Assembly (NCBI RefSeq): GCF_003011925.2
Contig: NZ_PXXU01000001.1
Coordinates: forward strand, 107,564-171,563
DNA: 64,000 nucleotides
Direction: 5' to 3'
Source of the DNA: Nitrosomonas supralitoralis
GTDB lineage: Bacteria > Pseudomonadota > Gammaproteobacteria > Burkholderiales > Nitrosomonadaceae
Under the pieces are notes generated by a model, which searched no databases, was not told where the DNA came from, and saw only the letters and a program-made list of their open reading frames with translations. Below are positions 29,723-56,592 of this stretch, one piece after another (positions within the stretch are counted from its first letter, which is position 1; each line of letters starts with the position of its first letter). The position numbers were made by a program, and so were the translations under genes.

Positions 29723-30519
29723 TTACGGAACACTGGCAACCGCCTTCGCCCCCATTACGTCCGCCTCATGCTCCAAACCCTGATCATCATTGACCGACAC
29801 CCCGTCCTTCATCTGCATTGTAGGCTTCACCCTTCCTTGCGCCTGTTGCACCACATGCCAGGCTTCATGCGGCAGATGCTGTTCCTGCCCGGGTGCGACA
29901 TGAATGTCGGTTCCCTGCGCGTAAGCCAGGGCATTGAGTTGTGCGGGCTGGGATGAATTGTAATGGACCTTGACGTTGTCCATGGATATGCCGGAAAGGG
30001 ACTCGATACCGGACTTGAGGTTATCGGGCAGACCGGTGTTGTTGGGTACTACGGCGTTTTTTTGCTCTCGTTGAATAGAGGATTCGGAAGTAAATTTGCC
30101 CTGCAACAGTTTCTCTTCTTCAACACGCTGAGCAGTTGCAAACTTTCCTTGCAAAGGCTCTTCTTCCACTCGCTGAGCGATTCCTTTACCCTGCAAAGGT
30201 TCTTCTTCCTCAACCCGTTGCGTAGCCTCGAATCTGCCTTGCAGCAATTTCTCCCCGGGTTTCGCCTGCAATCGCATACTGGCGGTTTGCAGCGAGTGGC
30301 TTATGCTCTTTGCGCGACCATCTGTGGGCTGTTATGCATTGACTCCGCCAGCTTGTGTTGGGTAATCAACGGCGAACTTGCCTGAATTGCGTGGATGAGC
30401 TGCAGCTGTGCGATGGTTTCAGGGCGGTTGTCACGGGCATTTTGCGGTGTGCTGCCACTAACGGTTGGTGATGGTCGGGTTTGTTGCGGGTCCAATTGAG
30501 TCGATACAGATTGCTTCAT
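29723..30519 (-). pseudogene. Second eCIS cargo gene: DUF4157 leader, frameshifted and lacking a toxin domain
   Basis: It begins at 30519 behind a strong GGAGG (five-base spacing): MKQSVSTQLDPQQTRP. The first frame stops at 30301 after HNSPQMVAQRA, and the protein continues in another frame (SHSLQTASMRLQAKPGEKLL); one missing base explains this. Next come three imperfect repeats around QRVEEEEPLQGK, QRVEEEPLQGKF and QRVEEEKLLQGKF, then a complete DUF4157 domain (NTGLPDNLKSGIESLSGISM; LPHEAWHVVQQAQGRVKPTM). It ends at MGAKAVASVP directly after the domain, where other effectors continue into a toxin. It is probably a dead or decapitated cargo gene. Confidence 0.7.
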
Positions 30520-33846: not shown

Positions 33847-35223
33847 TCACAATGTTCGTCCTTCTTTTAGTAGCTCTTTGGTCACACCCTTTATCAGATC
33901 ATTCTGAATAATCTTGTTTCGCTTCATGCGGATTGCTTGAATCGCCGCGTATCGCACGGCGTTGGTAATCGCCCCCCCTGAAAGTTCAAAGCGTTCTGCC
34001 AACCTTACCAAATCAACCTCTGACGACGACAACAACGGGTTGTTGGCAAACATACCCTGCCATAATCTTAAACGTTGCGCAGCATCGGGCATGGCAAAAT
34101 GTATGGAGGTTTGAAACCGCCGGGCAAAAGCGTCATCGATATTAGCTTTCAAATTAGTTGCTAGAATCACCACACCGGAATAATCCTCAACTCTCTGTAA
34201 TAAATATGAAACCTCCTGATTAGCATAGCGATCATTCGAACTGCTGGTTTGTGTTCTTTTACCGAACAGAGCATCGGCTTCATCAAAGAACAGAATCCAA
34301 TTTTTATTCTCCGCTTGATCAAAAACATTGGCGAGATTCTTTTCGGTTTCACCGATGTATTTCGATACCACCATTGACAAGTCAATACGATAAACATCAA
34401 CACCGATGCTTACACCAATCAATGTTGCCGTCAGCGTTTTTCCCGTCCCAGGCGGGCCATAAAATAACGCGCGATAACCAGGCTTAATATTTCTACCCAA
34501 ATCCCACTGGTGCAAGATTGTTTGTGAATGTTGCAACCATGTATTAATGTTCTCGATTTCATCCATCACCTCCGCATCAAGCACCAAATCATTCCATGTC
34601 AAGGATGTAGTTATCAGTTTTGCCGGAAAATGAATACCATAATCGGGTTTATCACATCGCCCCAGCGTCAATCGGTTCAGATACTCGAATGATATTAGCA
34701 ACATGGCACTTAGAAAAGGTTCGCCGCTAGCATTGTGCTCGATCCTGATAATCTGTTGTTGCAGCAAATAATGATCGGTTTGAAACAAGCGTAATACTTC
34801 AAAACGTTTGACAAGATCATCTCCGGCCAGAATAAAAACAGCTGTTTCACAAGTAGGCAGAAATCCGCCATGCCCTTTTCCCTTCCATCCACCAAATTCG
34901 GTAAATCCGCGTGCGGTATTTTGATTATTCAGCAGAAAAGTGTCCAATACATGAGGCTGGATATGGGGCAATAGCGCCAGGATAATTATTATGCGCTCAT
35001 CAAAACCCATTGTGTGATGACGCATCAACTGTGCATATTCTGATGAGTCCGCAGTCAGATCTGGCGCAGTTATTTTACGAATATCATCGATAGCACTTTC
35101 TCTGCAGAAATAAATATCCAAACGCGCAGCCAGAACCGCCTTAAACCAGATAATTTCCTGCATCAATGTTGCCGCGTTAGTGGCACTTTCTGTCATTACT
35201 GAATGCGCATCTGAACTATCCAC
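33847..35223 (-). CDS. eCIS AAA+ ATPase (Afp15/Pvc15-like)
   Basis: 458 residues. An N-terminal adaptor-like domain (about 1-230) precedes an AAA+ module: Walker A ALFYGPPGTGKTLTATLIG (about residue 254), Walker B WILFFDEADALFGKR (about 310), sensor VVILATNLKANIDDAFARRF with the Arg finger, and LSGGAITNAVRYAAIQAIR. Afp15/Pvc15-type ATPases are needed for particle assembly and have been linked to cargo loading. It sits three bases downstream of the tape-measure gene, the usual order in these loci. Confidence 0.92.
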   Translation of the reverse strand: MDSSDAHSVMTESATNAATLMQEIIWFKAVLAARLDIYFCRESAIDDIRKITAPDLTADSSEYAQLMRHHTMGFDERIIIILALLPHIQPHVLDTFLLNNQNTARGFTEFGGWKGKGHGGFLPTCETAVFILAGDDLVKRFEVLRLFQTDHYLLQQQIIRIEHNASGEPFLSAMLLISFEYLNRLTLGRCDKPDYGIHFPAKLITTSLTWNDLVLDAEVMDEIENINTWLQHSQTILHQWDLGRNIKPGYRALFYGPPGTGKTLTATLIGVSIGVDVYRIDLSMVVSKYIGETEKNLANVFDQAENKNWILFFDEADALFGKRTQTSSSNDRYANQEVSYLLQRVEDYSGVVILATNLKANIDDAFARRFQTSIHFAMPDAAQRLRLWQGMFANNPLLSSSEVDLVRLAERFELSGGAITNAVRYAAIQAIRMKRNKIIQNDLIKGVTKELLKEGRTL

Positions 35224-35226
35224 GGA

Positions 35227-38200
35227 TCACCGCCAAGATACATGAACAGGATGATCCATCCAAGTATGCCTAATCACCGAAAAACTCCACGGCAAACCAT
35301 CCAGCAACATATCAAAAACTCCGGGCTCAATCGTTAGATACCACATTCCCTCCTCAGTTAATTGTAAACGACCTTTGCGTTGCAGGAATGTTTCACGCAA
35401 ACCACTGATCGATGTGTTACCAATTGTTTTCCAGTTGTGAATCATGCCATGAATCAAACCTTCAATTGCTTCCTGTTCATGCACACTGATTTCAATCTGG
35501 CTGCAAATTGGAGTCCCGATAGATATTCCACATAAAATCTTATTCAGCGTCAACTGATATTCAGGAGATGACATCTGCTCATTGACCATGAACTGCAACA
35601 GATGTACTGCCCGCTCAGCCGCACGATAATCAACAAATTGCCCCTCTTCGATCAAATTGAGTAGCGAAAAAAGCCGAGGCAAATATGGCGCTGCAAGAAC
35701 CAGCCCAGCATTCTCGATATAGATTTCCTGGTTTGCCTCCAAATCGGACTCCAGTCTGTTAAATAACGTATTCAAATCAATCAAAGATTGCGCCGCTTTT
35801 ATAGGCATAGATTGCTTTGCATCGAACACATTTTTCTCAGCTTGAATCGATTCCGAAACGACTGCATCAAAAATAGCTGTCTCTATAAGAGTAGATAACG
35901 TTCCTTCAGCATTATTTTGCATCAGCGCCGCATGCCATACGTGCAAGGCCGCAGATAGCTGTGCCTCCACTGAAACATGCCTAATCAGTGCATGCAGCAA
36001 GGAGGTTAACTCAAATTCGCGTTCAGCTTTAGTCAGTAGATAATCCAATCCGGCTAACCATAGACGATTTATCCATTGTTGTTGTGAATCAGATGCGGTA
36101 ATTTGGGATGTTCGATGCAGCTTATCCGCATGTATCAACAAGTGTTCAATCAGCAAAGCCGCTTGTGGCGATAAAAAACAAACCATCTCAAACAACACTG
36201 ATTGCGGAAGCCTATCCACAAATATTCGTAATTCTTTCATTCGCAGCACTTCGCACAGCTGTTGCCTGAGTTCATCCAGGCGCATTCCGCTGCGAACTGT
36301 TCCCGTACCTGCTTCTACCAGCTGAGCTTTTCTGAGGGCGGTTAATATCCGCTCATATTGCATCTCATCGGATAGCTGCCGCGGCTCTTTCGATTTATCC
36401 ACCGATTGCGTGTCGATCGATTCTGATTTCGTCTCTTCGTGCTCGGCCGCGCCATCACTAACATTTCGGAATTCGGTTCGTCGCGTCACTGTTGCAATCG
36501 CTTCCAGGTCAATTTCGCGATCATGCAACAAGTCGTCCAGCAATCGACGGTAGTAAATTTTCTGATCCGTTGCCTGGCTTGCCTGATTTTCTATTGCTTG
36601 CTGGAAAATCATCCGGTCGCTGCCAGTAATGGAAGTTTTTGTCTTTAGCAGCATTTCAACCAGATTTCGCAGTTCATGGGCTTGCAACTGCGCGACTGTT
36701 AAAGCGTATCGTCCGTCACGCAAATTCTGATAGATGCGCTTGAGTTCAGTTGGATTGTCCGCAGCCAACGCCTCCAGAATTGTCTGCAAATCCTGCTGTC
36801 CGGAGTCCAACTCAGATTTACCTGCCGTAAAATGCCGACGTAATCTCTGGGATGCAATGCTTTCTTCAAATACTTCATCTGTAGAATCTGCCGCACTTCC
36901 GATTGTTGGGTTTCTTTCAGGGGTGCCAATAATAAGTGTTTGCAGCAGGGTGTATAGCGTGCCATAGGCTTTGCTTTGACTCAGTTGGTCATGCCAGGAT
37001 CGGAGACTGCTCTGCAAATCCGCTTCATCGGATACGCCACGAACCAGGATAAGCAAAAAGGTTGTGGATTTAAGATCGGAGTCTGTTTTAGTCAGCAGAT
37101 AATCCAATCCGGCTAACCATAGACGATTTATCCATTGTTGTTGTGAATCAGATGCGGTAATTTGGGATGTTCGATGCAGCTTATCCGCATGTATCAACAA
37201 GTGTTCAATCAGCAAAGCCGCTTGTGGCGATAAAAAACAAACCATCTCAAACAACACTGATTGCGGAAGCCTATCCACAAATATTCGTAATTCTTTCATT
37301 CGCAGCACTTCGCACAGCTGTTGCCTGAGTTCATCCAGGCGCATTCCGCTGCGAACTGTTCCCGTACCTGCTTCTACCAGCTGAGCTTTTCTGAGGGCGG
37401 TTAATATCCGCTCATATTGCATCTCATCGGATAGCTGCCGCGGCTCTTTCGATTTATCCACCGATTGCGTGTCGATCGATTCTGATTTCGTCTCTTCGTG
37501 CTCGGCCGCGCCATCACTAACATTTCGGAATTCGGTTCGTCGCGTCACTGTTGCAATCGCTTCCAGGTCAATTTCGCGATCATGCAACAAGTCGTCCAGC
37601 AATCGACGGTAGTAAATTTTCTGATCCGTTGCCTGGCTTGCCTGATTTTCTATTGCTTGCTGGAAAATCATCCGGTCGCTGCCAGTAATGGAAGTTTTTG
37701 TCTTTAGCAGCATTTCAACCAGATTTCGCAGTTCATGGGCTTGCAACTGCGCGACTGTTAAAGCGTATCGTCCGTCACGCAAATTCTGATAGATGCGCTT
37801 GAGTTCAGTTGGATTGTCCGCAGCCAACGCCTCCAGAATTGTCTGCAAATCCTGCTGTCCGGAGTCCAACTCAGATTTACCTGCCGTAAAATGCCGACGT
37901 AATCTCTGGGATGCAATGCTTTCTTCAAATACTTCATCTGTAGAATCTGCCGCACTTCCGATTGTTGGGTTTCTTTCAGGGGTGCCAATAATAAGTGTTT
38001 GCAGCAGGGTGTATAGCGTGCCATAGGCTTTGCTTTGACTCAGTTGGTCATGCCAGGATCGGAGACTGCTCTGCAAATCCGCTTCATCGGATACGCCACG
38101 AACCAGGATAAGCAAAAAGGTTGTGGATTTAAGATCGGAGTCTGTTTTAGTCAGCAGATAATCCAATCCGGCTAACCATAGACGATTTATCCATTGTTGT

Positions 38201-40635
38201 TGTGAATCAGATGCGGTAATTTGGGATGTTCGATGCAGCTTATCCGCATGTATCAACAAGTGTTCAATCAGCAAAGCCGCTTGTGGCGATAAAAAACAAA
38301 CCATCTCAAACAACACTGATTGCGGAAGCCTATCCACAAATATTCGTAATTCTTTCATTCGCAGCACTTCGCACAGCTGTTGCCTGAGTTCATCCAGGCG
38401 CATTCCGCTGCGAACTGTTCCCGTACCTGCTTCTACCAGCTGAGCTTTTCTGAGGGCGGTTAATATCCGCTCATATTGCATCTCATCGGATAGCTGCCGC
38501 GGCTCTTTCGATTTATCCACCGATTGCGTGTCGATCGATTCTGATTTCGTCTCTTCGTGCTCGGCCGCGCCATCACTAACATTTCGGAATTCGGTTCGTC
38601 GCGTCACTGTTGCAATCGCTTCCAGGTCAATTTCGCGATCATGCAACAAGTCGTCCAGCAATCGACGGTAGTAAATTTTCTGATCCGTTGCCTGGCTTGC
38701 CTGATTTTCTATTGCTTGCTGGAAAATCATCCGGTCGCTGCCAGTAATGGAAGTTTTTGTCTTTAGCAGCATTTCAACCAGATTTCGCAGTTCATGGGCT
38801 TGCAACTGCGCGACTGTTAAAGCGTATCGTCCGTCACGCAAATTCTGATAGATGCGCTTGAGTTCAGTTGGATTGTCCGCAGCCAACGCCTCCAGAATTG
38901 TCTGCAAATCCTGCTGTCCGGAGTCCAACTCAGATTTACCTGCCGTAAAATGCCGACGTAATCTCTGGGATGCAATGCTTTCTTCAAATACTTCATCTGT
39001 AGAATCTGCCGCACTTCCGATTGTTGGGTTTCTTTCAGGGGTGCCAATAATAAGTGTTTGCAGCAGGGTGTATAGCGTGCCATAGGCTTTGCTTTGACTC
39101 AGTTGGTCATGCCAGGATCGGAGACTGCTCTGCAAATCCGCTTCATCGGATACGCCACGAACCAAGGCTAACAAATACGTCGCAGGTTCAAATTCAGCGT
39201 CCGTTTCCGTCAGTAAATATGCCAGACTGCTCGTCCATAATCTTTGCTGCCATTGCGCTTGAGTATCGCGTCGATCTGAACTGGATGATCGATACAGGTG
39301 ATCTGCTAGAGCCAGTACGCGTTCCATCAGAAAAGCAGCCTGTGGTGTCAATAAGTACGTGATTTCCAGCAGGGTCGATTGCGGCAAATCAATCAACCGG
39401 GCAAGCATTGCCGGCGATCGCAGCAATTCTCTCAGTTGTTGCCTGAATTCATCCGGTTTCCTCTCAGTCGCCACAAGCGCAACACTTTCTTCTGTTAACT
39501 TTGCCTTACGTAGCTGTTTGAAGATCCTCTGATATAACAATCCATGCCTCAATAACACCGGCTTGAGTTGTTGCATGATCGGAGGAATGTATATTATTTT
39601 CGCTTCTTCGCTTTCTTCTACTAAACTACTGGCCTTGTCGCCTAGTGATTTGCTACCCTCCTTCCGATGTATCGCTGCAATCGAGTTTTCTTCGGAAATC
39701 AAATGAGGCTCGAGCAAGAATTCACTGCATTTTCTCAACAAATCATACAGTGCGCTACTGATCTTTCCCTCATTCTGATGTTGCTCGGCAGTGCGCAAAA
39801 TGTTTTGTAACAGAAAATGCGGCGCACACATCTGCTGCCGATTGATTAATTGGTCAATCAGTCGCGCAGGATTATTTAGAGGCTGAGCATCTTCAAACAA
39901 AATTTCAAGCAACTGTATCCAGATCGAGTTTCTTTTCTCAGTTTGAGTACCTAAAATAGCATCTGTCTTAAGAATCACCTGATGACATATCACCAGAAAT
40001 TCCAGTATCAAATGTCCATAAGTGGATTCAATTTTGAGTAAGATTTTTTCCAGGTGCTGTTGCGAGAATTGAGATACCAGTCGTTTGATAATTGCAGTTC
40101 TGTCAGTTGCAGGCAGGCTTCTAAGCATCCTAGCCAACGCGATTTCAGCGATCAGTTCTTCTTGCAATACCTGCAGCAGCATTTTTTCATGTGCGTAGCT
40201 GTCTGTTGCATCTATATGCCAGGGCATACGACCTGTTCTCAGAAAACCATACAAATTCATCAAATCAGATTGTGTTTTACTGAATTGTTGTATGGGTAAA
40301 TTACCCGTGCGCTCTGATCCGGAGAATTGATATTTTTGTTGCAGCGCCCGAAGCTCATCACTAAGTTTCGTTTGAAAACATTGCATCAACTCAATATAAG
40401 AATCACTATCTAGAATATCTCCCAGATCAATCTCAATTTGATTTATACGCCACACTGAACCTTTTTCATCAAACTCGTTTAGGATTTCATCCAGCGCAGG
40501 CAGCAATTTTTCTGTTACCCAGTTACTCATTTCCGCTTCGTGCTGTTGAACCATTATCATGGAATTGCAAGACCAATCAAAGATGAGCTCATCAATGCGA
40601 TGCACTATCGACATGTTGTTAAATCCAGTGCTCAT
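35227..40635 (-). CDS. eCIS tape-measure protein (CIS_TMP, Afp14-like) with internal 353-residue repeats
   Basis: 1802 residues. The N-terminus (HRIDELIFDWSCNSM, then VWRINQIEIDLGDI) is the CIS_TMP signature: a short conserved helix pair ending in an IDLG motif. The rest is helical. Residues about 491-1533 consist of 2.95 copies of a 353-residue unit beginning near VRGVSDEADLQSSLRSWHDQ and containing ELRNLVEMLLKTKTSITGSD. Diverged relatives flank them (QLRKAKLTEESVALVATERK before; RHVSVEAQLSAALHVWHAAL after). Tape-measure proteins set tube length, and Afp14 does so in Serratia Afp. One copy instead of three would give about 1096 residues. The start overlaps the upstream baseplate gene by 17 bases. 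Confidence 0.9.
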   Translation of the reverse strand: MSTGFNNMSIVHRIDELIFDWSCNSMIMVQQHEAEMSNWVTEKLLPALDEILNEFDEKGSVWRINQIEIDLGDILDSDSYIELMQCFQTKLSDELRALQQKYQFSGSERTGNLPIQQFSKTQSDLMNLYGFLRTGRMPWHIDATDSYAHEKMLLQVLQEELIAEIALARMLRSLPATDRTAIIKRLVSQFSQQHLEKILLKIESTYGHLILEFLVICHQVILKTDAILGTQTEKRNSIWIQLLEILFEDAQPLNNPARLIDQLINRQQMCAPHFLLQNILRTAEQHQNEGKISSALYDLLRKCSEFLLEPHLISEENSIAAIHRKEGSKSLGDKASSLVEESEEAKIIYIPPIMQQLKPVLLRHGLLYQRIFKQLRKAKLTEESVALVATERKPDEFRQQLRELLRSPAMLARLIDLPQSTLLEITYLLTPQAAFLMERVLALADHLYRSSSSDRRDTQAQWQQRLWTSSLAYLLTETDAEFEPATYLLALVRGVSDEADLQSSLRSWHDQLSQSKAYGTLYTLLQTLIIGTPERNPTIGSAADSTDEVFEESIASQRLRRHFTAGKSELDSGQQDLQTILEALAADNPTELKRIYQNLRDGRYALTVAQLQAHELRNLVEMLLKTKTSITGSDRMIFQQAIENQASQATDQKIYYRRLLDDLLHDREIDLEAIATVTRRTEFRNVSDGAAEHEETKSESIDTQSVDKSKEPRQLSDEMQYERILTALRKAQLVEAGTGTVRSGMRLDELRQQLCEVLRMKELRIFVDRLPQSVLFEMVCFLSPQAALLIEHLLIHADKLHRTSQITASDSQQQWINRLWLAGLDYLLTKTDSDLKSTTFLLILVRGVSDEADLQSSLRSWHDQLSQSKAYGTLYTLLQTLIIGTPERNPTIGSAADSTDEVFEESIASQRLRRHFTAGKSELDSGQQDLQTILEALAADNPTELKRIYQNLRDGRYALTVAQLQAHELRNLVEMLLKTKTSITGSDRMIFQQAIENQASQATDQKIYYRRLLDDLLHDREIDLEAIATVTRRTEFRNVSDGAAEHEETKSESIDTQSVDKSKEPRQLSDEMQYERILTALRKAQLVEAGTGTVRSGMRLDELRQQLCEVLRMKELRIFVDRLPQSVLFEMVCFLSPQAALLIEHLLIHADKLHRTSQITASDSQQQWINRLWLAGLDYLLTKTDSDLKSTTFLLILVRGVSDEADLQSSLRSWHDQLSQSKAYGTLYTLLQTLIIGTPERNPTIGSAADSTDEVFEESIASQRLRRHFTAGKSELDSGQQDLQTILEALAADNPTELKRIYQNLRDGRYALTVAQLQAHELRNLVEMLLKTKTSITGSDRMIFQQAIENQASQATDQKIYYRRLLDDLLHDREIDLEAIATVTRRTEFRNVSDGAAEHEETKSESIDTQSVDKSKEPRQLSDEMQYERILTALRKAQLVEAGTGTVRSGMRLDELRQQLCEVLRMKELRIFVDRLPQSVLFEMVCFLSPQAALLIEHLLIHADKLHRTSQITASDSQQQWINRLWLAGLDYLLTKAEREFELTSLLHALIRHVSVEAQLSAALHVWHAALMQNNAEGTLSTLIETAIFDAVVSESIQAEKNVFDAKQSMPIKAAQSLIDLNTLFNRLESDLEANQEIYIENAGLVLAAPYLPRLFSLLNLIEEGQFVDYRAAERAVHLLQFMVNEQMSSPEYQLTLNKILCGISIGTPICSQIEISVHEQEAIEGLIHGMIHNWKTIGNTSISGLRETFLQRKGRLQLTEEGMWYLTIEPGVFDMLLDGLPWSFSVIRHTWMDHPVHVSWR
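36038..39164 (-). repeat. 2.95 tandem copies of a 1059-bp repeat inside the tape-measure gene
   Basis: The first unit runs 36038-37096, the second 37097-38155, and the third 38156-39164 (incomplete). The unit length is a multiple of three (353 codons), so the frame is kept for any copy number. Every stretch I compared, and translations in several frames, were identical between copies. Divergence starts at once outside: position 36037 differs from 37096, and the sequence after 39164 changes. Confidence 0.92.
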
Positions 40636-43600
40636 TCACAGCTTCCCTTCTGTTCTTTAGCAAACAGGAAATCACTCGTTCAGATGCTCTATTGAGTTTT
40701 TCAAAGTCGTTGTGATCAGGATTCTGGCTCGCATGTCGCATACGGAACAACCAAATTTTATAGCACTGTTCAAAATCCCGCATATAACCAAAATCAAGCC
40801 AATAGAATTCCGCAAACACATGTGCCGGGAGATTCTTGAGCACCGTTTCTTGCGCGAATTTCCTAAACGCAGCACTTGAGAATCTTGCTGTCCAGGATGG
40901 AAAAATCACGCTGATGCGGAAATCAAAAGAAAACTTGGATTCCGGAATATTATCAAATGAGCCTTGCCCTCGAGGCCGTAATAGCACATGTTCAATCATG
41001 TGGAAATTTTCACATGCCATATTCAGTTGTGTTATTACGCTGCAATAATCATGTGCATATCTTATTGCTTCATTCACACTCTGTTTGCTACCGAGCGGCC
41101 AAAATATTTTATCCTGCTCGGTCTTTATATATACAACCGTTTTATCACCGGAAGTGATAAGCCTATAGTTTTTTAAGTCAGTCCCTTTTTTAAAGAGAGA
41201 GTACCCAAAAGGCGGAAGCTCTAATGGAATGGTAATGCTTTCAAATTTATTTTTTTCGAAAATTACAGAAATCGCTGCGTGCTGCATTTCTTCAGTCAAA
41301 TCTTCCTGGATCAGCGTTTGGTCAGGGATCAGACGGCTGTTTCTTTTAATTAATATATCAGTGATGGATGGAATGCTATGAAACTGACTACAGCCCAATA
41401 AAATGCTTATTCGTTTATGAGCACCCGCAATATTTCCTGCCTTTACCTCATGATGCCCCGACATCGCAGGCTGTAAATAATTAAAACCTGCCGCTCTATC
41501 ACGTGTAATCTCCCTGATACATTTCAGGAAATTAATTTTATTTTCAATAATCCAATGATCGAAATCCGAACGCCGGTAACAATCGAATTGTAATAGCAGA
41601 TCTTGCGGATATTCTTCTCCATATAGCGCCAACAATGTATCCAAGATGCGATTTCTCCGCTCAGCAAAGTGATCATAATGCGCCTGAATTTCAATCAGTA
41701 AGGATTTACAATGTTCCTTGCCAATTACATAGAGTGATTCAATGCCTGGGATATTCTGGTCACTGAGAAATTGAGCAAAATAAGATTGCTTGAGTTCAGA
41801 ATCCAACGAGAATAACCTTGGAATCTCTTGCAGATTTTGCAAATAATCTGCCATTAACTGTTCAAAAGGAAACAAATATGCTTTTAATTGCTTCGCTCTT
41901 GCTTTGACATCTGCTGATTCTGAATGAGAAATACCATACCGGTTAATTCCGTAAACATCAGGAAAATGATTCTGGATTGAAAAATAATCGGCTAATGCGC
42001 GCTGCCGCCCTTTGGGTAACCGAATGAATTGCGAAAACGATTGATCGTTATTTCTAAAAGCGCGGTATTCAAAAATTAATTTTTTGAGTTCCAAGTAAGT
42101 TTCTTTTAACAATGCCTCATCTTGTGGATATTTGGGTGGCACAAAACTTGTGGCATGCCGATCAGAATCTTTACGACTTGCATTCTGTGATAGCACCAGT
42201 TGCAAAATTTGCTGTGGTTTTCCAGGTCTTGGAAAACATAAATCAGGAAAAATATATTTTAATGAATTGTATTCAATCGCAGTAGATTTCTTGTTATATT
42301 GATCAATCAGATACAGATCGCGTACTTGGATAACACCTTCTATTTGATTCACCAGTGTAATTAAATCGACTACACTCAATACTACTTCTTGCGCTGATTC
42401 GAACCATTGATCGCTGATATACCCATGCCTTGTTAAAGGACCTGAAAAAATCTGCTCATAGTTACCCGTTTGATTAAACACAGATTCATAGCGATCAATC
42501 TGAATTCCGGAAGAAATATAGTGAGCGCATTTTAGAAAAATTTCCGCATAAATCTTAGCCTTCTTATAAGAAGGCTGAATTTCGACCTCCCCCCCCAGAA
42601 AATAGGGTATTGTTTGAATAATCTCAATACGGTGAATATCCTCACAAAGATTGCGATGCTTCAAGAAAACCGACAGAATTTTTTGTTTAATAGCCGTATC
42701 ATTGAGTTTCTCTGTACTTTGGTCTGTAGTGACAATTGGCGAAAACAGCCCGTTTCCCATCTCAAGCATTACGTAATTCAGCTTCTGTAATGCATGCTCA
42801 AATCCAGTCATAGAAGTGATCAATCTAGTCAGGCAATCTGTTTCGATAGATACTTTGTCAGCAGGATCAGAGCCTATCGCTGTTAAAATGTATGTTACCG
42901 AGCTCTTCAGATTTGCATTACTAAATACTGCTTCCAGCTTAAACAAAATCTCGCTCAATCTAGAGCTGAGTTCTGCATTAGGTGATGAGTCGTGAATGAT
43001 AGACCAAATAGCGTTAATCTGGCTCCAGACACTATCCACATACGATAAATTCGTGACTAATAGGCGCAGAGTTCTTTTTACTTGATCAATGAGTACCTCT
43101 GGCTCTGATCTTGGCAAACTGTCATTTTCAACAATCTCACATTCTTTTTCCAAGTTTTCGTGCCATATATTCAAACGATCGCCCAGCTGATCAAAAAGGC
43201 CGCGAACTTGATCCGAGGCACGACTTATTTGTTTCAGTCTGCTGAATAATCGATCCAGACTTCCATGGCGCTTTGAATTGTTCGAATGATTCTGGTTCAG
43301 TTCATCATCAATCTTAACAAATACGGTATACAAACAATTTATTGCCGTATTTTCTTCTGCTGAGCAGGACTCAAGCCAGACATAATCAATCTCGGGAATC
43401 TCATCGTAAAGAATTTTCTGATAATCAATCTCTGTAACCGCAGAGCTAGGAAAAACTTCCTCGGGTGAAAATAAAGCATGCCGCTGATAATCAATGCTAC
43501 CCTTTTCATTTGTCAAGTAATCTGGGACTTCAAATTCGGATCGATGAGATAAATCTGTTAATCCATAGCAGAGCTGATCCAAAATGGTAACTCCAGGATC

Positions 43601-43732
43601 ATGCAAATTATAGTCGGTCCAGACATCCCCACATAAACCCTGGATCTTACTAATCGCTTCTTGTCTTAGCGTTTCAAAATCAAGCCCATCAGGATCGATT
43701 TTGATGCGTTGAATGTGCTCAGATGTCGACAT
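40619..43732 (-). CDS. eCIS baseplate protein (Afp12-like)
   Basis: 1037 residues. The N-terminal block GLCGDVWTDYNLHDPGVTIL, then DQLCYGLTDLSHRSEFEVPD (about residues 32-71), is the baseplate wedge signature of eCIS Afp11/12-type proteins. The middle (about 150-350) is helical, and a second conserved segment is KGRQRALADYFSIQNHFPDV. In the T4 analogy it forms part of the wedge around the spike. It overlaps the 108-residue gene upstream by 14 bases and the tape-measure gene downstream by 17, which suggests tight translational coupling. Confidence 0.85.
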   Translation of the reverse strand: MSTSEHIQRIKIDPDGLDFETLRQEAISKIQGLCGDVWTDYNLHDPGVTILDQLCYGLTDLSHRSEFEVPDYLTNEKGSIDYQRHALFSPEEVFPSSAVTEIDYQKILYDEIPEIDYVWLESCSAEENTAINCLYTVFVKIDDELNQNHSNNSKRHGSLDRLFSRLKQISRASDQVRGLFDQLGDRLNIWHENLEKECEIVENDSLPRSEPEVLIDQVKRTLRLLVTNLSYVDSVWSQINAIWSIIHDSSPNAELSSRLSEILFKLEAVFSNANLKSSVTYILTAIGSDPADKVSIETDCLTRLITSMTGFEHALQKLNYVMLEMGNGLFSPIVTTDQSTEKLNDTAIKQKILSVFLKHRNLCEDIHRIEIIQTIPYFLGGEVEIQPSYKKAKIYAEIFLKCAHYISSGIQIDRYESVFNQTGNYEQIFSGPLTRHGYISDQWFESAQEVVLSVVDLITLVNQIEGVIQVRDLYLIDQYNKKSTAIEYNSLKYIFPDLCFPRPGKPQQILQLVLSQNASRKDSDRHATSFVPPKYPQDEALLKETYLELKKLIFEYRAFRNNDQSFSQFIRLPKGRQRALADYFSIQNHFPDVYGINRYGISHSESADVKARAKQLKAYLFPFEQLMADYLQNLQEIPRLFSLDSELKQSYFAQFLSDQNIPGIESLYVIGKEHCKSLLIEIQAHYDHFAERRNRILDTLLALYGEEYPQDLLLQFDCYRRSDFDHWIIENKINFLKCIREITRDRAAGFNYLQPAMSGHHEVKAGNIAGAHKRISILLGCSQFHSIPSITDILIKRNSRLIPDQTLIQEDLTEEMQHAAISVIFEKNKFESITIPLELPPFGYSLFKKGTDLKNYRLITSGDKTVVYIKTEQDKIFWPLGSKQSVNEAIRYAHDYCSVITQLNMACENFHMIEHVLLRPRGQGSFDNIPESKFSFDFRISVIFPSWTARFSSAAFRKFAQETVLKNLPAHVFAEFYWLDFGYMRDFEQCYKIWLFRMRHASQNPDHNDFEKLNRASERVISCLLKNRREAVNEHWI

Positions 43733-48729: not shown

Positions 48730-49149
48730 TTACAATTCAACATTAGTGCCTTCCGTAAAATAAAAAGGGTAGACGATATTATGACGATTATTTGTTGCTC
48801 GCACGATATAGGTGATTTCAATATTAATCAGGCCATACAAGGTATCTTCAAGATCATCTGAATTTACACTGACTTTTTCCACCGTGACCCTGGGTTCAAA
48901 AAACAGTATGGCGCGTTTTACCAAATCAACAATGACGGTTACATTTGTTTCACTAAGTTCTTCAAAAACCATAGTCTTCAGATCGCAGCCATAGGTGGGT
49001 TGCATCACCCGCTCTCCAGGGTTAGTCGACAGCAAGATATACAAACTTTCACGAATATCTTCTTCCGCAGAAACTTTCCTCACCAATCCCTGATTATCAA
49101 ACTCTGGTGGAAACCCCCACCCAGTGCCAAGAAAAGATTTATCATTCAT
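48730..49149 (-). CDS. GPW/gp25 family baseplate protein (Afp9-like)
   Basis: 139 residues. FLGTGWGFPPEFDNQGLVRK at the start and NPGERVMQPTYGCDLKTMVF (about residues 44-63) are the gp25 core; gp25 folds with the sheath handshake domain and nucleates sheath assembly at the baseplate. Length is normal. It is placed between the PAAR gene and the Afp11-like gene. Confidence 0.93.
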   Translation of the reverse strand: MNDKSFLGTGWGFPPEFDNQGLVRKVSAEEDIRESLYILLSTNPGERVMQPTYGCDLKTMVFEELSETNVTVIVDLVKRAILFFEPRVTVEKVSVNSDDLEDTLYGLINIEITYIVRATNNRHNIVYPFYFTEGTNVEL

Positions 49150-49520: not shown

Positions 49521-51317
49521 TTAATTAATCATTACAATGCCGCCTTTAACCATTGTTTGCCCACTTGCGGACAATTCGGCTGTGGCATTGCCTTTTGCAC
49601 TGAAACCAACATTTGCCTGCTGATTAATATTCAAACCCTGATTCTTAATATCTGCCTGCGCCGTCAATTCAATGTTTCCAATCGCATCAAAAGTTATCTT
49701 GCCTTTAGCGCTAATTTTGATGTCTTTAGGGCTATCTATCACAATACCATTGGGATTAAGCTCAATTTTATTGGCATTTTGATCTTGCAGTAAAATCGAT
49801 TTCTGATCATCACTTATTACGATTTTGTTGTTATCTGGTGTTATCAGCGTAACCACTTTCTTCTCATCATCGAATTCAAGCTTAAGCTTACTGCGCGTTA
49901 CGATTGCTTTGATAAAATTATCTGCTGTCAATTCATAAGCAGGATTCTTGTTGCTGCTATACAAACTACCCAAAATAACCGGATATGAAGGATCCGCATT
50001 AAAAAACCCCAGCACGACTTCATCACCAATTTCTGGAATAAAAAAAGCACCCAGTTCCTTTGAACCATAGAAACTGACAAGTCGAGCCCAAACACCATCC
50101 GCCTCTGATTGCATAATCGGAACGGATACCTGAATTTTGTATTGACCATCTGGATCCGCGTCCAATTTTTTAACCAACCCAATCTGAAGTCCATTCACTC
50201 CCGGAACCAGACCTGACGCAAGCGGTGCTTCGGTTCGGTGTTGCTCTGTAAACCATTGCGATGCCAAACCAAACTCAATCTCTGTCACCCAATTTCCATG
50301 CTTGATTTCATGTTTTACCGCAGTCACTAGCACATTGCCATTAAACCGGTTACCTACGCCATTCAGTTCAACCAAGTCGCCGATTTTTACTTTGGCACTT
50401 CCTTGAAAAGTAGCATAACCTCTGATTCTCGCCAACCCTGATTTAATTTGTTGGCTATTAGTCCAATCCGTTAACGCCGCACTTTCTACAGGCACATGCG
50501 TCTGCAAGCGAAAATAGCTGGGCGCAATGACACTAGACAAATCTGCGGCATCAAGATCACCTTGTCCGGTTAAATGTTTCGGACCCGCTTCTTCTGTTTG
50601 TGCAGCTTGTTCGGCAAGATTCCACGAGACACCTTTGACCGTCGAAAATTGCGATGCCGCATCAAGATCTGCACTGAAAGCCATCAAGTCAGTACCATAG
50701 GTTAACGAAAGCACAGCTTCCCCGCTTACCTGAGGTGCTTTGACGCTGACCTTACCCGCATGAATAGTCACCAAAAACCCATTTGCTTCTGCTCGGGTAA
50801 CAACATAATCCCAGTCAGTACAATAGTATTGCACTAATTCCTTGTAGAGAGTCGTTGTAGCATCCACATCAACCGATAATTTGCTATAAGTACTGATTAT
50901 TTTATCGATAATGTCACTGTCTTTTGAGTCGATAAAGTTGGCGTTCCTCCGACCAACTGTCATAGCAACGGCACTGTCTTTACACTGAATGATCAGACGG
51001 GAAAAATTATCACCATCTATTTTTATGCCATGTTTAATAATAATGCCTCTGAAAACCTCAACCGTCTGATTTGCATAACCTGCGTTAATGGTAATTTCAG
51101 CGCCCGGCTTAAAATCATTTTTATTACTCACTGGAAAATCCGCGTTAGGCATATCCCCATCCAGCAGAATTATCTTGGCGCTGGGGATCTTGTTAACTGC
51201 ATATAAGATTTCAATCGAAACTATTTGAATCGTATCGGCAATGGTTTGACCATTGCTCAAAATGATCACTGATAACACGCCCGTGCTACCCATCAAGGGG
51301 GAATCTGCCATAGACAA
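49521..51317 (-). CDS. VgrG-like central spike protein (Afp8-like)
   Basis: 598 residues. The N-terminal half is a gp27-like hub (PSAKIILLDGDMPNADFPVS; VEVFRGIIIKHGIKIDGDNF). A gp5 OB-fold follows at about residues 375-465 (GLQIGLVKKLDADPDGQYKI; FFIPEIGDEVVLGFFNADPS; YPVILGSLYSSNKNP). The C-terminal 110 residues are a repetitive beta-helix needle (DQNANKIELNPNGIVIDSPK). This is the membrane-piercing spike. It starts four bases after the LysM gene. Confidence 0.95.
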   Translation of the reverse strand: MSMADSPLMGSTGVLSVIILSNGQTIADTIQIVSIEILYAVNKIPSAKIILLDGDMPNADFPVSNKNDFKPGAEITINAGYANQTVEVFRGIIIKHGIKIDGDNFSRLIIQCKDSAVAMTVGRRNANFIDSKDSDIIDKIISTYSKLSVDVDATTTLYKELVQYYCTDWDYVVTRAEANGFLVTIHAGKVSVKAPQVSGEAVLSLTYGTDLMAFSADLDAASQFSTVKGVSWNLAEQAAQTEEAGPKHLTGQGDLDAADLSSVIAPSYFRLQTHVPVESAALTDWTNSQQIKSGLARIRGYATFQGSAKVKIGDLVELNGVGNRFNGNVLVTAVKHEIKHGNWVTEIEFGLASQWFTEQHRTEAPLASGLVPGVNGLQIGLVKKLDADPDGQYKIQVSVPIMQSEADGVWARLVSFYGSKELGAFFIPEIGDEVVLGFFNADPSYPVILGSLYSSNKNPAYELTADNFIKAIVTRSKLKLEFDDEKKVVTLITPDNNKIVISDDQKSILLQDQNANKIELNPNGIVIDSPKDIKISAKGKITFDAIGNIELTAQADIKNQGLNINQQANVGFSAKGNATAELSASGQTMVKGGIVMIN

Positions 51318-51320
51318 GCC

Positions 51321-52025
51321 TTAGCGTAATGGAGGGAATTGAAGCTTGATCCCTGGTTTTAAATCACGAAAATTTGTCAGATTATTGATCTTTGCAACTT
51401 CAGAATAATAAGTACTGTCCTGATAAATCCGATAACACAGCAAAGGTAAAGTATCTCCAGCCTTCACCTCAACCAAATGGGTCAAATCGGGAGATTGCAT
51501 TGCTGCTTCTTTGGATATTTCTTCACTGCTCTGATATTCAATAAATGAAAGTGCAACCTTTGCTCGTAATGGTGCACCATTGGGCTTAAACAAGGTATAG
51601 TCAAATTTAAGCGACTCTAGCCGGCCGTAAAATAACAATTTCCCCCATTTTAATTGAACGATTGGTGCCTCATGCTTATTACCCAGATAGGTATAAACGA
51701 CATTTTTTAATAATTCAATCTGATCCTTGACAGACATCGGAATGCTATTAGAAGAACTCCTGCCTGATTTGACAACACCGGTTCCATCCAGAACCAGATC
51801 TTTTAGAGTAATTTTTTCAGGGAGGCTTACATCATATTTAGTTTCGGCTCCGGGCTGACCCAGGACTTTATTTTTAGAATAATACAACTGAAATGCGTGC
51901 TCATATCCCGCAGGATTTATTAATGCTTTAAACTGCTTCTTCGAGCCATCAATACTTATTTTTCCATTGTTGACGGAGCAAGGAGAAATTGTTAGCAGAG
52001 CTTTAGCACCACCCCTAGCTGCCAT
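51321..52025 (-). CDS. LysM-containing hub/tube connector (Afp7-like)
   Basis: 234 residues. The body (ALINPAGYEHAFQLYYSKNK; QLKWGKLLFYGRLESLKFDY; GAPLRAKVALSFIEYQS) is the gp53/Afp7-type hub protein. The last 55 residues are a LysM-like domain (HLVEVKAGDTLPLLCYRIYQ). In eCIS this protein links the inner tube to the spike hub. Its ATG directly abuts the DUF5908 stop (TAGATG). Confidence 0.92.
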   Translation of the reverse strand: MAARGGAKALLTISPCSVNNGKISIDGSKKQFKALINPAGYEHAFQLYYSKNKVLGQPGAETKYDVSLPEKITLKDLVLDGTGVVKSGRSSSNSIPMSVKDQIELLKNVVYTYLGNKHEAPIVQLKWGKLLFYGRLESLKFDYTLFKPNGAPLRAKVALSFIEYQSSEEISKEAAMQSPDLTHLVEVKAGDTLPLLCYRIYQDSTYYSEVAKINNLTNFRDLKPGIKLQFPPLR

Positions 52026-52208: not shown

Positions 52209-52679
52209 CTAAACAATACGCTTTGAAAATGTATAACTGAAAACTATTTTTTCTATGGCAACTTCATTCTTAGTGGAACCAAAGCTCTCAATCTCCCATT
52301 TCACCGGATACGCCGAATCAAATAACCACCCACGAATAACTTCTTTATTTTCATTCATCAAAAAAACTCGAATGGCTTTTGATTCAATTGACTCTATGAA
52401 ATCCATTTCCATAACAGTTTTGCACCATTTAACCAATGGCGATGTCAATGAAGCTATACCACGTTTCATTTCAAGATTTGGGTGCTTCACACCTTTAGGT
52501 AATTGATGAACAAATCTATTTTCTCCGCCTTCAATCACCGATTCCACTTCGATTTCAGAAGAAATCCCCGACACTTCTTGAAAGGAAGTATCGACTGTTT
52601 CATTACAGTCTCCAAACTTTACTTTAAAATAAAATGCTGAAGGTGGATATATTCCTGCTAATTGTTCATTATCAGTCAT
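52209..52679 (-). CDS. eCIS inner tube protein 2 (Afp5-like)
   Basis: 156 residues of the T4 gp19/Hcp-like tube fold: PPSAFYFKVKFGDCNETVDT, SFQEVSGISSEIEVESVIEG, and KWEIESFGSTKNEVAIEKIV. Being nearest the hub genes, it is likely the baseplate-proximal tube adaptor, as Afp5 is. It is clearly related to, but diverged from, the tube gene just upstream. Confidence 0.93.
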   Translation of the reverse strand: MTDNEQLAGIYPPSAFYFKVKFGDCNETVDTSFQEVSGISSEIEVESVIEGGENRFVHQLPKGVKHPNLEMKRGIASLTSPLVKWCKTVMEMDFIESIESKAIRVFLMNENKEVIRGWLFDSAYPVKWEIESFGSTKNEVAIEKIVFSYTFSKRIV

Positions 52680-52710
52680 TTAAATCCGGTCTTTCTGTTT
52701 GCAAATTGTT

Positions 52711-53169
52711 TTATTTAAGGGCAATTGTTAAACCTTCGTGCACGATTTCTATGGTTTCAATCGCCACTTCATTACCTTCTGATTTTAGATCCGTACCGGT
52801 AATCTTTGTCGGCCAGGCATTTGCCAGCTTCCACACCATCACTGCACCACCGCCTTCATCCAGCAATGTGATAGTAACCGGCAACCGTTTGATCTTATTC
52901 ATCTTGATCTGATCAAACCAATCCCAGAATTTATTATCGTCTTTGAAGACACCTTTTTTCATGGTGACATTACCAAATTTTTTCATTCCTGGCATTTTGA
53001 TAACCGAAAACTGCGGACTATCGCCATGACGATATTTTATTTCCTCAGACTGAATGTCTAGTCCACTTACTTCTTGAAATGACATCTTTTGAGAATCCCA
53101 CTTAACCTCAAAATAAAACTTGGGTACGGGCCAAACTGTCGTTGATTGACTTGATCCATCATCTGCCAT
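52711..53169 (-). CDS. eCIS inner tube protein 1 (Afp1-like)
   Basis: 152 residues: VWPVPKFYFEVKWDSQKMSF, QEVSGLDIQSEEIKYRHGDS, and KITGTDLKSEGNEVAIETIE. It is probably the major tube subunit, stacking as hexamers inside the sheath to make the lumen that carries cargo. GAGGT lies before the ATG. It follows the sheath gene with a 71-base gap. Confidence 0.95.
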   Translation of the reverse strand: MADDGSSQSTTVWPVPKFYFEVKWDSQKMSFQEVSGLDIQSEEIKYRHGDSPQFSVIKMPGMKKFGNVTMKKGVFKDDNKFWDWFDQIKMNKIKRLPVTITLLDEGGGAVMVWKLANAWPTKITGTDLKSEGNEVAIETIEIVHEGLTIALK

Positions 53170-53240: not shown

Positions 53241-54749
53241 TTAGGATTTCTGCATCTGTTGCTGGAATGTAATTTCGATAAATTCTGCAGGACGGCTCAA
53301 TGCCACCATCACAGTTACCCGAAGAACACCATCCAGAATATCCTGTGGTGTCATAGTCTCACCTAGACCCACGAACACACTAAAAGCATCTTCTGGAGAT
53401 GCACCAGCCAAACCACCGCGTTTCCAGATACTGGTCAGAAAATTACTGATCATGCTTCTGATGGTCACCCAAGTCGTTGACACGTTAGGTTCAAAAACAG
53501 AAGCTTTGGCTGCCAGCTTGATAGATTCTTCCAACATAATCATGGTCCTACGCACATTCACATATCGCCAATCCAAGCTGTTTCCATCCAATGTACGTGC
53601 ACCCCACACCAGCGTGCCTTCCCCAATAAAAGTACGAATGGCATTAATCGACTTACCTGCGGTTGTCACATTCAAGTCTTCCTGTTGTGCATGTGTTATT
53701 TCCACCGAAGGGGAAATAACCGCATTTAAGCTCACATTGGCTGGCGCTTTCCATACTCCGCGCGAATTATCAGTCGTAGTGTAAACACCAGCCATGCCAC
53801 CGCTCGGTGGTAGTAAATTGAGTTTGAGCTTGATACTTTCAATAATAGCTTTATAGACAGGAGAAACTGCCGTTAGTATCTTGTGCAGGTCATCATCTGT
53901 AGACATTTCCTCCGTCTTTGGAGTCACATTGATTTCTTTAATCTTGCCAGTAATTTCAGTTTTCTTCTTTTCATCCAAATCGGCAGTGCCTATTTCTTCA
54001 TTCAATACTTCTTGTAATTTATCTAGATTTGAAATATTAGCAAAACTAAGATCACCGGCTTGCACAATAGACGTATTAAGCCAAGGATAATATGCCGCCG
54101 CAAAGTCAAGGTTATTGGTCCCAAGTTGATTGCGGAAATTCTCGATGCACTGACTATCCTGCGCTTCCTTATAGCCATTAAAAATATCCAGGATTGCAAA
54201 GCGATTCCTCATCACCTGTCCACAATGGCGCAGTGCATCCTGTTGTAAAGCGATACAATCAGAATCCTTCAAAGACATGGCATCAGGAATCACAACCATG
54301 GTTGGTTCCTGCTCTTTTAACAAAACATCAATCCCTGTGCTCAGTATATTTTTATCAATAGCTTGTTCATAGCTACCCACTGAGACAACATAACAAGCAC
54401 CTCCGCCATTCGAGAAGAAAAGCATCATGCTGTGATATAAATAATATCTTGATCCCTCGGGTTTTAGAGTGTATTCCTTATTATTACTGGAGAAGTCAGA
54501 TTCATCATCTTTATTGGTCGAGTCAAAATCAGCAATTTCATATTGCGTTTTAGGCGGTCTACCAAAGAAATCGTTAAATTCCAACATGGATGATATGCGC
54601 CACGCCTTATTCAATAAAGTTTTTCCTTTATTGCTGGCCTTTTCTGTATAGCCAATAAATGCGGGTACTGCGGTAGCTACTTCTACAACAGAATTAGGGA
54701 ATGCATTTTTTTCAACAATGTACACACCCGGCGTTTTATATTGCCCCAT
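53241..54749 (-). CDS. eCIS contractile sheath protein
   Basis: 502 residues. The N-terminus GQYKTPGVYIVEKNAFPNSV and TAVPAFIGYTEKASNKGK, and the C-terminus SPEDAFSVFVGLGETMTPQD, then DILDGVLRVTVMVALSRPAE and FIEITFQQQMQ, are typical of the sheath family, the C-terminal part forming the interlocking handshake domain. Only one sheath gene is present (Afp has three). AAGGGGAA (about 54756-54764) gives a strong ribosome-binding site, consistent with a high-copy subunit. A 249-base gap precedes it and may hold its own promoter; I could not identify clear boxes. Confidence 0.96.
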   Translation of the reverse strand: MGQYKTPGVYIVEKNAFPNSVVEVATAVPAFIGYTEKASNKGKTLLNKAWRISSMLEFNDFFGRPPKTQYEIADFDSTNKDDESDFSSNNKEYTLKPEGSRYYLYHSMMLFFSNGGGACYVVSVGSYEQAIDKNILSTGIDVLLKEQEPTMVVIPDAMSLKDSDCIALQQDALRHCGQVMRNRFAILDIFNGYKEAQDSQCIENFRNQLGTNNLDFAAAYYPWLNTSIVQAGDLSFANISNLDKLQEVLNEEIGTADLDEKKKTEITGKIKEINVTPKTEEMSTDDDLHKILTAVSPVYKAIIESIKLKLNLLPPSGGMAGVYTTTDNSRGVWKAPANVSLNAVISPSVEITHAQQEDLNVTTAGKSINAIRTFIGEGTLVWGARTLDGNSLDWRYVNVRRTMIMLEESIKLAAKASVFEPNVSTTWVTIRSMISNFLTSIWKRGGLAGASPEDAFSVFVGLGETMTPQDILDGVLRVTVMVALSRPAEFIEITFQQQMQKS

Positions 54750-56022: not shown

Positions 56023-56592
56023 TTACTGCACCGAAGGTTTAGGTTCGCTCACGAGTGGAATGCGACCAGCGATATCTTCTGCGTCAAATGCAACCATTCG
56101 CACTCGATATAGGATCGAGGGCAGATATTTCCCTCCCAAAGCACCCCATAAATTACTCAAATCCTGAATCGAAAGATTTTCGATATCCAGAATAAGTTTC
56201 TCAATCCGAGCATCCATTTCCGGCGCTATTTGACGATTAATCACATAGTTCCTTTGAAAGAAACTAATGGTGCTTGATAGGAATTTAAGTGCCTCAGAAT
56301 AATGGTTGCCGGTAAAATTAGCGGTCATCATCAAGTACAAATTGAAATAAAACGGTGCAACGCTCTGCATCTCAAGTTGACGCACTTCGTGCGATTTTAC
56401 TTGCCGAAAAGGAATCGCATCCTTTTCGATATTAACTAGAAAAATAACCAACTTGTTATTGACATTCGCGGCCATGCTGCCATCCATTTCCAGTAAATTG
56501 GACACCACAACCACATCTTCTCCCAAATTGTATGTACGCCGCAGATATTGATTTAATTGGGTTGCAAGAAGTTGAACGGCTAGATTAATCAT
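56023..56592 (-). CDS. DUF4255 sheath terminator (Afp16/Pvc16-like)
   Basis: 189 residues. AVQLLATQLNQYLRRTYNLG, then VVSNLLEMDGSMAANVNNKL and VIFLVNIEKDAIPFRQ, are the DUF4255 signature; PFYFNLYLMMTANFTGNHYS follows. In Afp the terminator caps the distal end of the tube and sheath and fixes the final length together with the tape measure. It is the first gene of the structural operon here and begins 41 bases after the DUF853 ATPase gene. Confidence 0.93.
   Translation of the reverse strand: MINLAVQLLATQLNQYLRRTYNLGEDVVVVSNLLEMDGSMAANVNNKLVIFLVNIEKDAIPFRQVKSHEVRQLEMQSVAPFYFNLYLMMTANFTGNHYSEALKFLSSTISFFQRNYVINRQIAPEMDARIEKLILDIENLSIQDLSNLWGALGGKYLPSILYRVRMVAFDAEDIAGRIPLVSEPKPSVQ

Follow-up and report, generated by a model that had tools for sequence, protein, structure and literature searches.

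The tape-measure gene of an eCIS locus in Nitrosomonas carries, in the present assembly, nearly three copies of a 353-codon unit that match base for base. We consider it likely that this array belongs to a repeat region in which modules of two types, A and B, are copied over each other, and are gained or lost in whole codons, by homologous recombination. The expected result would be copies that remain identical within a lineage while the length of the ruler, and with it that of the tube, changes in steps. In-frame recombination of ruler modules, viewed as an evolutionary process, appears well supported by comparisons across the genus; that it proceeds by homologous recombination, through both gene conversion and unequal crossing-over, is what we infer. 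The array, first noticed in a preliminary description of this DNA, is confirmed, and the interpretation offered there is supported in part. The strongest new fact is that ruler modules have been homogenized in several lineages of the genus, near-closed genomes included.

The window, by which we mean the whole 64,000-nt stretch of DNA analyzed, corresponds to positions 107564 to 171563 of contig C2 in genome G000, a 3.75-Mb draft in 239 contigs. Its open reading frame at 35227-40635 (minus strand) is intact, encodes 1,802 amino acids (aa), and matches the CIS_TMP family PF19268 with 322 bits against a cutoff of 27.8. The frame lies inside an eCIS locus, adjoining an AAA ATPase gene and accompanied by sheath, tube, spike, baseplate, and cap genes, so that it can be assigned, by family and by place, to the Afp14/Pvc14 type; its earlier identification as an eCIS tape measure is borne out. 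We take Afp14 (of the Serratia Afp) and Pvc14 (of the Photorhabdus PVC) to be members of PF19268. The genes of the locus are as follows.

33847..35223, minus strand: AAA ATPase in the Afp15/Pvc15 position, adjoining the tape-measure gene (PF00004)
35227..40635, minus strand: eCIS tape-measure gene (CIS_TMP, Afp14/Pvc14 type), 1,802 aa, N-A-B-A-B-A-B-A-C (PF19268, E = 1.1e-95; translation; module parse)
40619..43732, minus strand: 1,037-aa protein in the Afp12 (baseplate) position (weak TIGR02243 match, far under the model's cutoff; no Pfam match)
48730..49149, minus strand: baseplate wedge gp25-like protein (PF04965)
49521..51317, minus strand: VgrG-type spike (TIGR01646, PF04717)
51321..52025, minus strand: CIS_tube protein (PF19266)
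52209..53169, minus strand: two gp19-type tube proteins, 52209-52679 and 52711-53169 (PF06841)
53241..54749, minus strand: contractile sheath protein (PF17482 above the cutoff; PF04984 under it)
56023..56592, minus strand: Pvc16/Afp16-type cap (terminator) protein (PF14065, Pvc16_N)

Other genes lie around these. Beside the ATPase gene, an 878-aa protein that matches no Pfam or NCBIfam model (31203-33839, minus strand) is a candidate eCIS component, and several relatives have open frames of 878 to 945 aa in a comparable place. Just beyond the eCIS genes, a 184-aa protein with an eCIS_core domain (29723-30277, minus strand; PF13699, 1.4e-9) is a candidate particle cargo, and a 663-aa protein with a GDPD (glycerophosphodiester phosphodiesterase) domain (26738-28729, minus strand) adjoins the locus and may belong to it. 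An IS200-like Y1 transposase gene (25696-26577, minus strand) is situated between the eCIS region and the gene for an S8 peptidase with RTX calcium-binding repeats (22723-25635, plus strand).

The array spans 3,127 bp, or 2.95 copies of a 1,059-bp period, and consists of exact matches: positions 36038-38105 equal 37097-39164 base for base (2,068 bp, at a lag of 1,059), and positions 36038-37046 equal 38156-39164 (1,009 bp). Coordinates, period, and nucleotide identity were all given correctly in the preliminary description, and the unit is, as claimed there, exactly 353 codons long (1,059 = 3 x 353), which keeps the reading frame. Beyond the array edges, identity at a lag of 1,059 falls immediately to about 0.4 to 0.6, as expected of A modules that are homologous but diverged long ago, and then to background. 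Iterated profiles parsed the protein into an N-terminal region (N), A modules of about 145 to 165 aa, B modules of about 95 to 125 aa, and a C-terminal domain (C), and the parts of the gene, with residue numbers in parentheses, are placed as follows.

39532..40635, minus strand: N-terminal region (1-368), module parse
39088..39513, minus strand: module A1 (375-516); 3' part in the array, 5' part diverged, dS of 1.5 versus A2 (A1/A2 stretch of 122 codons)
38611..38901, minus strand: module B1 (579-675), module parse
38029..38457, minus strand: module A2 (727-869), module parse
37552..37842, minus strand: module B2 (932-1028), module parse
36970..37398, minus strand: module A3 (1080-1222), module parse
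36493..36783, minus strand: module B3 (1285-1381), module parse
35914..36339, minus strand: module A4 (1433-1574); 5' part in the array, 3' part diverged, dS of 2.3 versus A3 (A3/A4 stretch of 49 codons)
35230..35727, minus strand: conserved C-terminal domain (1637-1802), modeled as alpha/beta
36038..39164, minus strand: array of 2.95 identical 1,059-bp (353-codon) units (exact matches of 2,068 and 1,009 bp; identity profile)
37047..37096, minus strand: inner junction J, 50 bp, copy 1, identical to 38106-38155 and unlike both array flanks
38106..38155, minus strand: inner junction J, 50 bp, copy 2, identical to 37047-37096

Over 353 codons, units 1 and 2 differ by a single synonymous change, located at the array edge, next to A-module stretches with the high dS values listed. 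Purifying selection was rejected as the cause of this identity, selection on the protein being unable to hold synonymous sites identical. The array is ordered X-J-X-J-X, and J matches neither array flank, indicating that at least one inner junction, and hence at least two X copies, would be required even if the draft had over-counted; the assembled count of three is unsure because the genome is a draft in many contigs. The absence of J from the flanks also means that a single duplication of flanking sequence would not explain the array. The older diverged copies previously described on both sides are present as A1 and A4, but they are A modules only, partly inside the array, and not whole units. 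Their best identity to an inner A module is 55% for A1 and 83% for A4, and profiles indicate a distant kinship between the A module and the second half of N. Copies of the unit in its own genome were found only at this gene, and the 64-kb window holds no direct repeats of 32 bp or more besides those of the array. Tandem Repeats Finder detected no tandem array of period 500 or less in the 30- to 45-kb region, a limit that excludes the 1,059-bp period.

Relatives of the gene were collected by a profile search of genomes (a protein scan of genome contigs confirmed none). PF19268 was matched in 30 of the 85 genomes of the genus, 29 of them above the cutoff, and these 29 loci were read; the below-cutoff fragment in G452 was left out. 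All but one are long tape-measure genes, 12 of which are broken by a contig end or a run of N (G003, G019, G022, G027, G028, G438, G444, G445, G449, G461, G472, and G473). Long exact internal repeats are present in 5 of the 16 uninterrupted genes, measuring 2,068 bp (G000), 1,607 bp (G448), 1,501 bp (G443), 1,355 bp (G447), and 869 bp (G029). Five others have short exact repeats of 31 to 58 bp (G026, G031, G446, G454, and G466), and exact repeats of at least 24 bp are absent from the remaining 6 (G006, G034, G434, G435, G453, and G469). The periods listed for uninterrupted genes are all multiples of three; lags across N gaps carry no meaning. Among the interrupted genes, exact repeats reach 1,310 bp in G022, 447 bp in G027, and 160 bp in G461. 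Near-closed genomes, with no N in the gene, comprise three single contigs (G443, G029, and G006) and two genomes in two contigs (G448 and G466), and three of these five have long exact repeats (869, 1,501, and 1,607 bp).

Two loci of the genus are unusual. G028, a single scaffold, was kept out of the near-closed count because both of its tape-measure pieces have N runs; the N-side and C-side pieces (L034 and L035) lie about 1.14 Mb apart, each beside an N run, which probably reflects faulty scaffolding at the repeat, if not two partial loci. The short form in G437 (L075, 3190-4596) is a 469-aa CIS_TMP made up of nothing but N and C parts, which sets it apart from the other 28 loci read; it perhaps represents a separately acquired eCIS.

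Exact repeats of at least 24 bp occurred in the tape-measure genes of none of 17 loci outside the genus, a control weakened, but not removed, by the contig start that cuts the G171 gene and by proteins that are often shorter (8 of 17 reach 1,000 aa). Ten of these loci came from the class sample, which gave 12 matching genomes out of 370, including two from the genus itself. The other seven came from the phylum sample, in which 11 of 397 matched; two were in the genus, one was already in the set, and one weak below-cutoff match was left out. Four short family members of the class sample (493 to 535 aa) have N and C parts only, and a plasmid search with the short protein of G279 returned 11 records. 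Repeats of another kind were observed in P0044, a 3,000-aa CIS_TMP with many N-like modules and a 245-residue lag, and in P0011 (Candidatus Electronema), a CIS_TMP with internal repeats at an 81-residue lag.

Comparisons between genomes argue that the copies are kept alike over time. G447 and G448 have the architecture NABAABAC in common, and their copies are identical within each genome (1,355/1,355 and 1,607/1,607), as against 1,265/1,355 (93.4%) between the genomes, where N is 96.3% and C 97.6% identical. Since identity within exceeds identity between, changes made since the split have reached both copies, a pattern that reads as concerted evolution and not as one recent duplication. G443 and G029, which have NABAAABAC in common, are 100% identical within and 69.5% identical between. 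Among eight NABAAABAC proteins, A1/A4 and B1/B2 identity extends from 0.99 to 1.00 (G029 and P0024) down to 0.61 to 0.71 (P0026, P0028, and P0029). Paralogues within a genome are more alike than orthologues between genomes in G447/G448, G443/G029, G029, and P0024, but not in P0026, P0028, and P0029, where paralogues are 0.54 to 0.71 and orthologues 0.92 to 0.94 alike. For the window itself, the search gave no conspecific genome that could serve for comparison. The state can differ between close relatives: paralogous A1/A4 and B1/B2 are 0.92 alike in P0023 versus 1.00 in P0024, both named N. oligotropha, and P0024 and P0026 have opposite homogenization states with nearly the same N domain (0.996).

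Trees of the modules add to this picture. In a quick tree of B modules, with some long branches, from 13 chosen proteins, a single origin of a protein's copies suffices in 8 of the 11 proteins with multiple B modules; support is weak for P0005 (59) and P0030 (81), and the copies of P0023, P0026, and P0028 are ungrouped. The B copies of P0024 are identical also to P0023_B1 and P0026_B1. A copies group less by protein, with 27 changes over 12 groups against a shuffled mean of 39.3, again in a quick tree with some long branches. The array had earlier been attributed to recent expansion or ongoing homogenization; the comparison of genomes favors homogenization, and recent expansion alone is too simple because the copies of relatives are alike within lineages of common older architecture.

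Module number also differs between genomes, in in-frame steps. The uninterrupted genes, 16 in all, fall into eight architectures, with open frames of 1,091 to 1,963 aa (stop to stop, slightly longer than the proteins), and an N-domain tree of 28 proteins with complete architectures involves 13 architecture changes; P0049 and P0050, added by a third protein search, are not in the parsed set. The largest module content is 5 A and 3 B copies (P0002). NABAAABAC is common to many relatives, and copy number looks stable there. Four sequences (P0038, P0034, G027, and P0030) have identical N domains (342/342), with C identical (167/167) in the three that have it, and contain zero AB units in P0038 (NAC, 702 aa), one in P0034 (NABAC, 1,084 aa), at least two in G027 (N gap), and at least three in P0030 (contig end). 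Together with the 1,466 aa of the sister P0005, the lengths 702 and 1,084 form steps of exactly 382. These sequences come from draft, MAG, or similar assemblies in which repeats may have collapsed: P0038 lies on a 5.6-kb contig, and its sole A is a hybrid of A1 and the last A, joined inside 40 identical residues, an outcome that collapse would produce as well. Collapse of the G027 or P0030 copies alone would not yield P0034, because its A1 and B1 carry residues absent from them. The same N and C domains with zero to at least three units are at most a hint of a phase-variable locus.

What a unit contributes to particle length would depend on how the modules fold. AlphaFold2 modeled an A-B-A stretch (14 sequences) as short helices in compact stretches (pLDDT of 74), with low-confidence, disordered linkers of 20 and 34 residues (167-186 and 316-349), and the A4-C stretch (20 sequences; pLDDT of 83) with an alpha/beta C domain. 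Neither sequence search nor Foldseek against the PDB with both models (E ≤ 0.001) yielded a solved structural relative; the A4-C part had no match among 50,697 phage records, and a scan of viral contigs with the tape-measure alignment gave none. Afp14, according to the title of a 2015 paper by Rybakova, is said to be a regulator of Afp length. A role of Afp14 in length is stated also in an excerpt of PMC10066040, which describes Streptomyces CIS of homogeneous length without a typical Afp14. Two extended rulers serve as yardsticks: the 817-aa protein of the bacteriocin diffocin, at about 138.8 nm, gives 0.170 nm per residue (PMC11329794, in part), and gp18 of phage SPP1, whose 1,032 aa correspond to a tail tube some 160 nm long, gives 0.155 nm per residue (PMC6316719, in part). 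If the modules are extended, a 353-aa unit would span 55 to 60 nm and the whole protein 279 to 306 nm, and less if they are folded. The previous estimate of about 50 nm per unit would hold only for modules extended in the tube; with the compact short helices of the model, the step could be smaller.

Three other explanations bear on these results. An assembler that looped through the repeat could have created the array, in which case the actual number of units would be lower (or higher). G000 is broken into 239 contigs, an end of which is found less than 1 kb away from 8 of the 19 transposase loci fetched, as in short-read drafts, and the 12 interrupted long genes of the genus fit this explanation too; it is opposed by J, which needs at least two units, and by exact repeats of 869 to 1,607 bp in the same gene of three near-closed genomes. 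A de Bruijn overlap was sought at one end of the window's contig, and that end shared no sequence with another contig. We regard an artifact as unlikely, and as the main reading it was set aside on the repeats in near-closed genomes and the within-genome identity across diverged genomes. Nor do we favor a one-off recent duplication without a continuing process, in which identity would reflect youth. The window alone would allow it, its copies being too alike for dating and its boundaries sharp, but a common architecture in diverged genomes with copies identical within each contradicts it for G447/G448 and part of the NABAAABAC group, and one duplication of flank-matching sequence would not give J, which differs from both flanks; it was set aside as the main reading and is very improbable.

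The remaining alternative accepts that the modules recombine and holds that particle length does not follow, either because the modules are folded or act in cargo, chaperone, or payload docking or because the tube is terminated by a Pvc16-type cap or some other component. It draws on the predicted short helices with disordered linkers, the alpha/beta C domain, the Pvc16_N cap gene in the locus, and the homogeneous Streptomyces particles mentioned above, and is opposed by the reported role of Afp14 in Afp length. Two other systems also speak against it: a predicted globular domain of the diffocin protein appears as short rods in line in the lumen (PMC11329794, in part), and TP901-1 tails are shortened by tape-measure deletions (Mahony 2016, PMC5099701, in part). 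We consider this alternative somewhat unlikely.

Under the preferred reading, recombination between ruler modules, conversion would make copies alike, unequal exchange would change the number of units, and whole-codon periods would keep the reading frame. Kilobase-long identical direct repeats in one open reading frame are ample substrate for RecA-type recombination. The likely effect of a change in units would be a ruler, and so an injection tube, lengthened or shortened in discrete steps. A stronger version, in which such modules cross over at a high rate and one clone makes, or quickly evolves, a ladder of particle lengths about 55 to 60 nm apart, seems doubtful to us. A length-switching device of this type is undescribed for contractile machines in the literature searched.

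The Nitrosomonas proteins resemble Afp14 and Pvc14 in Pfam family name, place beside an AAA ATPase, and eCIS setting, and differ from short CIS_TMP family members, with N and C only, in their inserted, recombining A and B modules. They are like repeat-bearing phage tape measures in that units are gained and lost: phage proteins have variable numbers of 11-residue units, duplicated and lost (Belcaid 2011, PMC3271669, in part), and the TP901-1 authors propose that duplications and deletions are made easier by repeats (excerpt of PMC5099701). Phage units, however, have 11 or 18 residues with aromatic markers, whereas those of Nitrosomonas are whole domains of about 350 to 810 residues, several kept identical, and phage-type tandem units of 33 or 54 bp were absent at the DNA level from the 30- to 45-kb region of the window. 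As in concerted evolution of the rDNA type, paralogues within a genome are more alike than orthologues between genomes; unlike rDNA-type arrays, these repeats are in frame and belong to a single coding sequence, that of a secretion-machine protein. The open-access literature searched contained no report of eCIS tape measures gaining or losing units and none of an eCIS in Nitrosomonas, although papers containing both "Nitrosomonas" and "contractile injection system" exist, and Nitrosomonas is not named in the main text of a 1,249-genome eCIS survey (PMC8213781).

Caution is needed with assemblies of the eCIS tape-measure gene, since among the drafts read the long form is broken in 12 of 28 cases, a figure that stands without comparison to other genes. 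Few contractile injection systems have had their length control described, and a single genus here offers a graded series of rulers, with uninterrupted frames of 1,091 to 1,963 aa and one of 702 aa in a database protein from a short contig. With known unit steps, the nanometers per residue of an eCIS, and whether its modules are extended or folded, could be measured directly on particles from cultured strains by electron microscopy. Should the number of units switch within strains, this would be an unusual form of phase variation, one that alters how large a nanomachine is and not its presence or surface.
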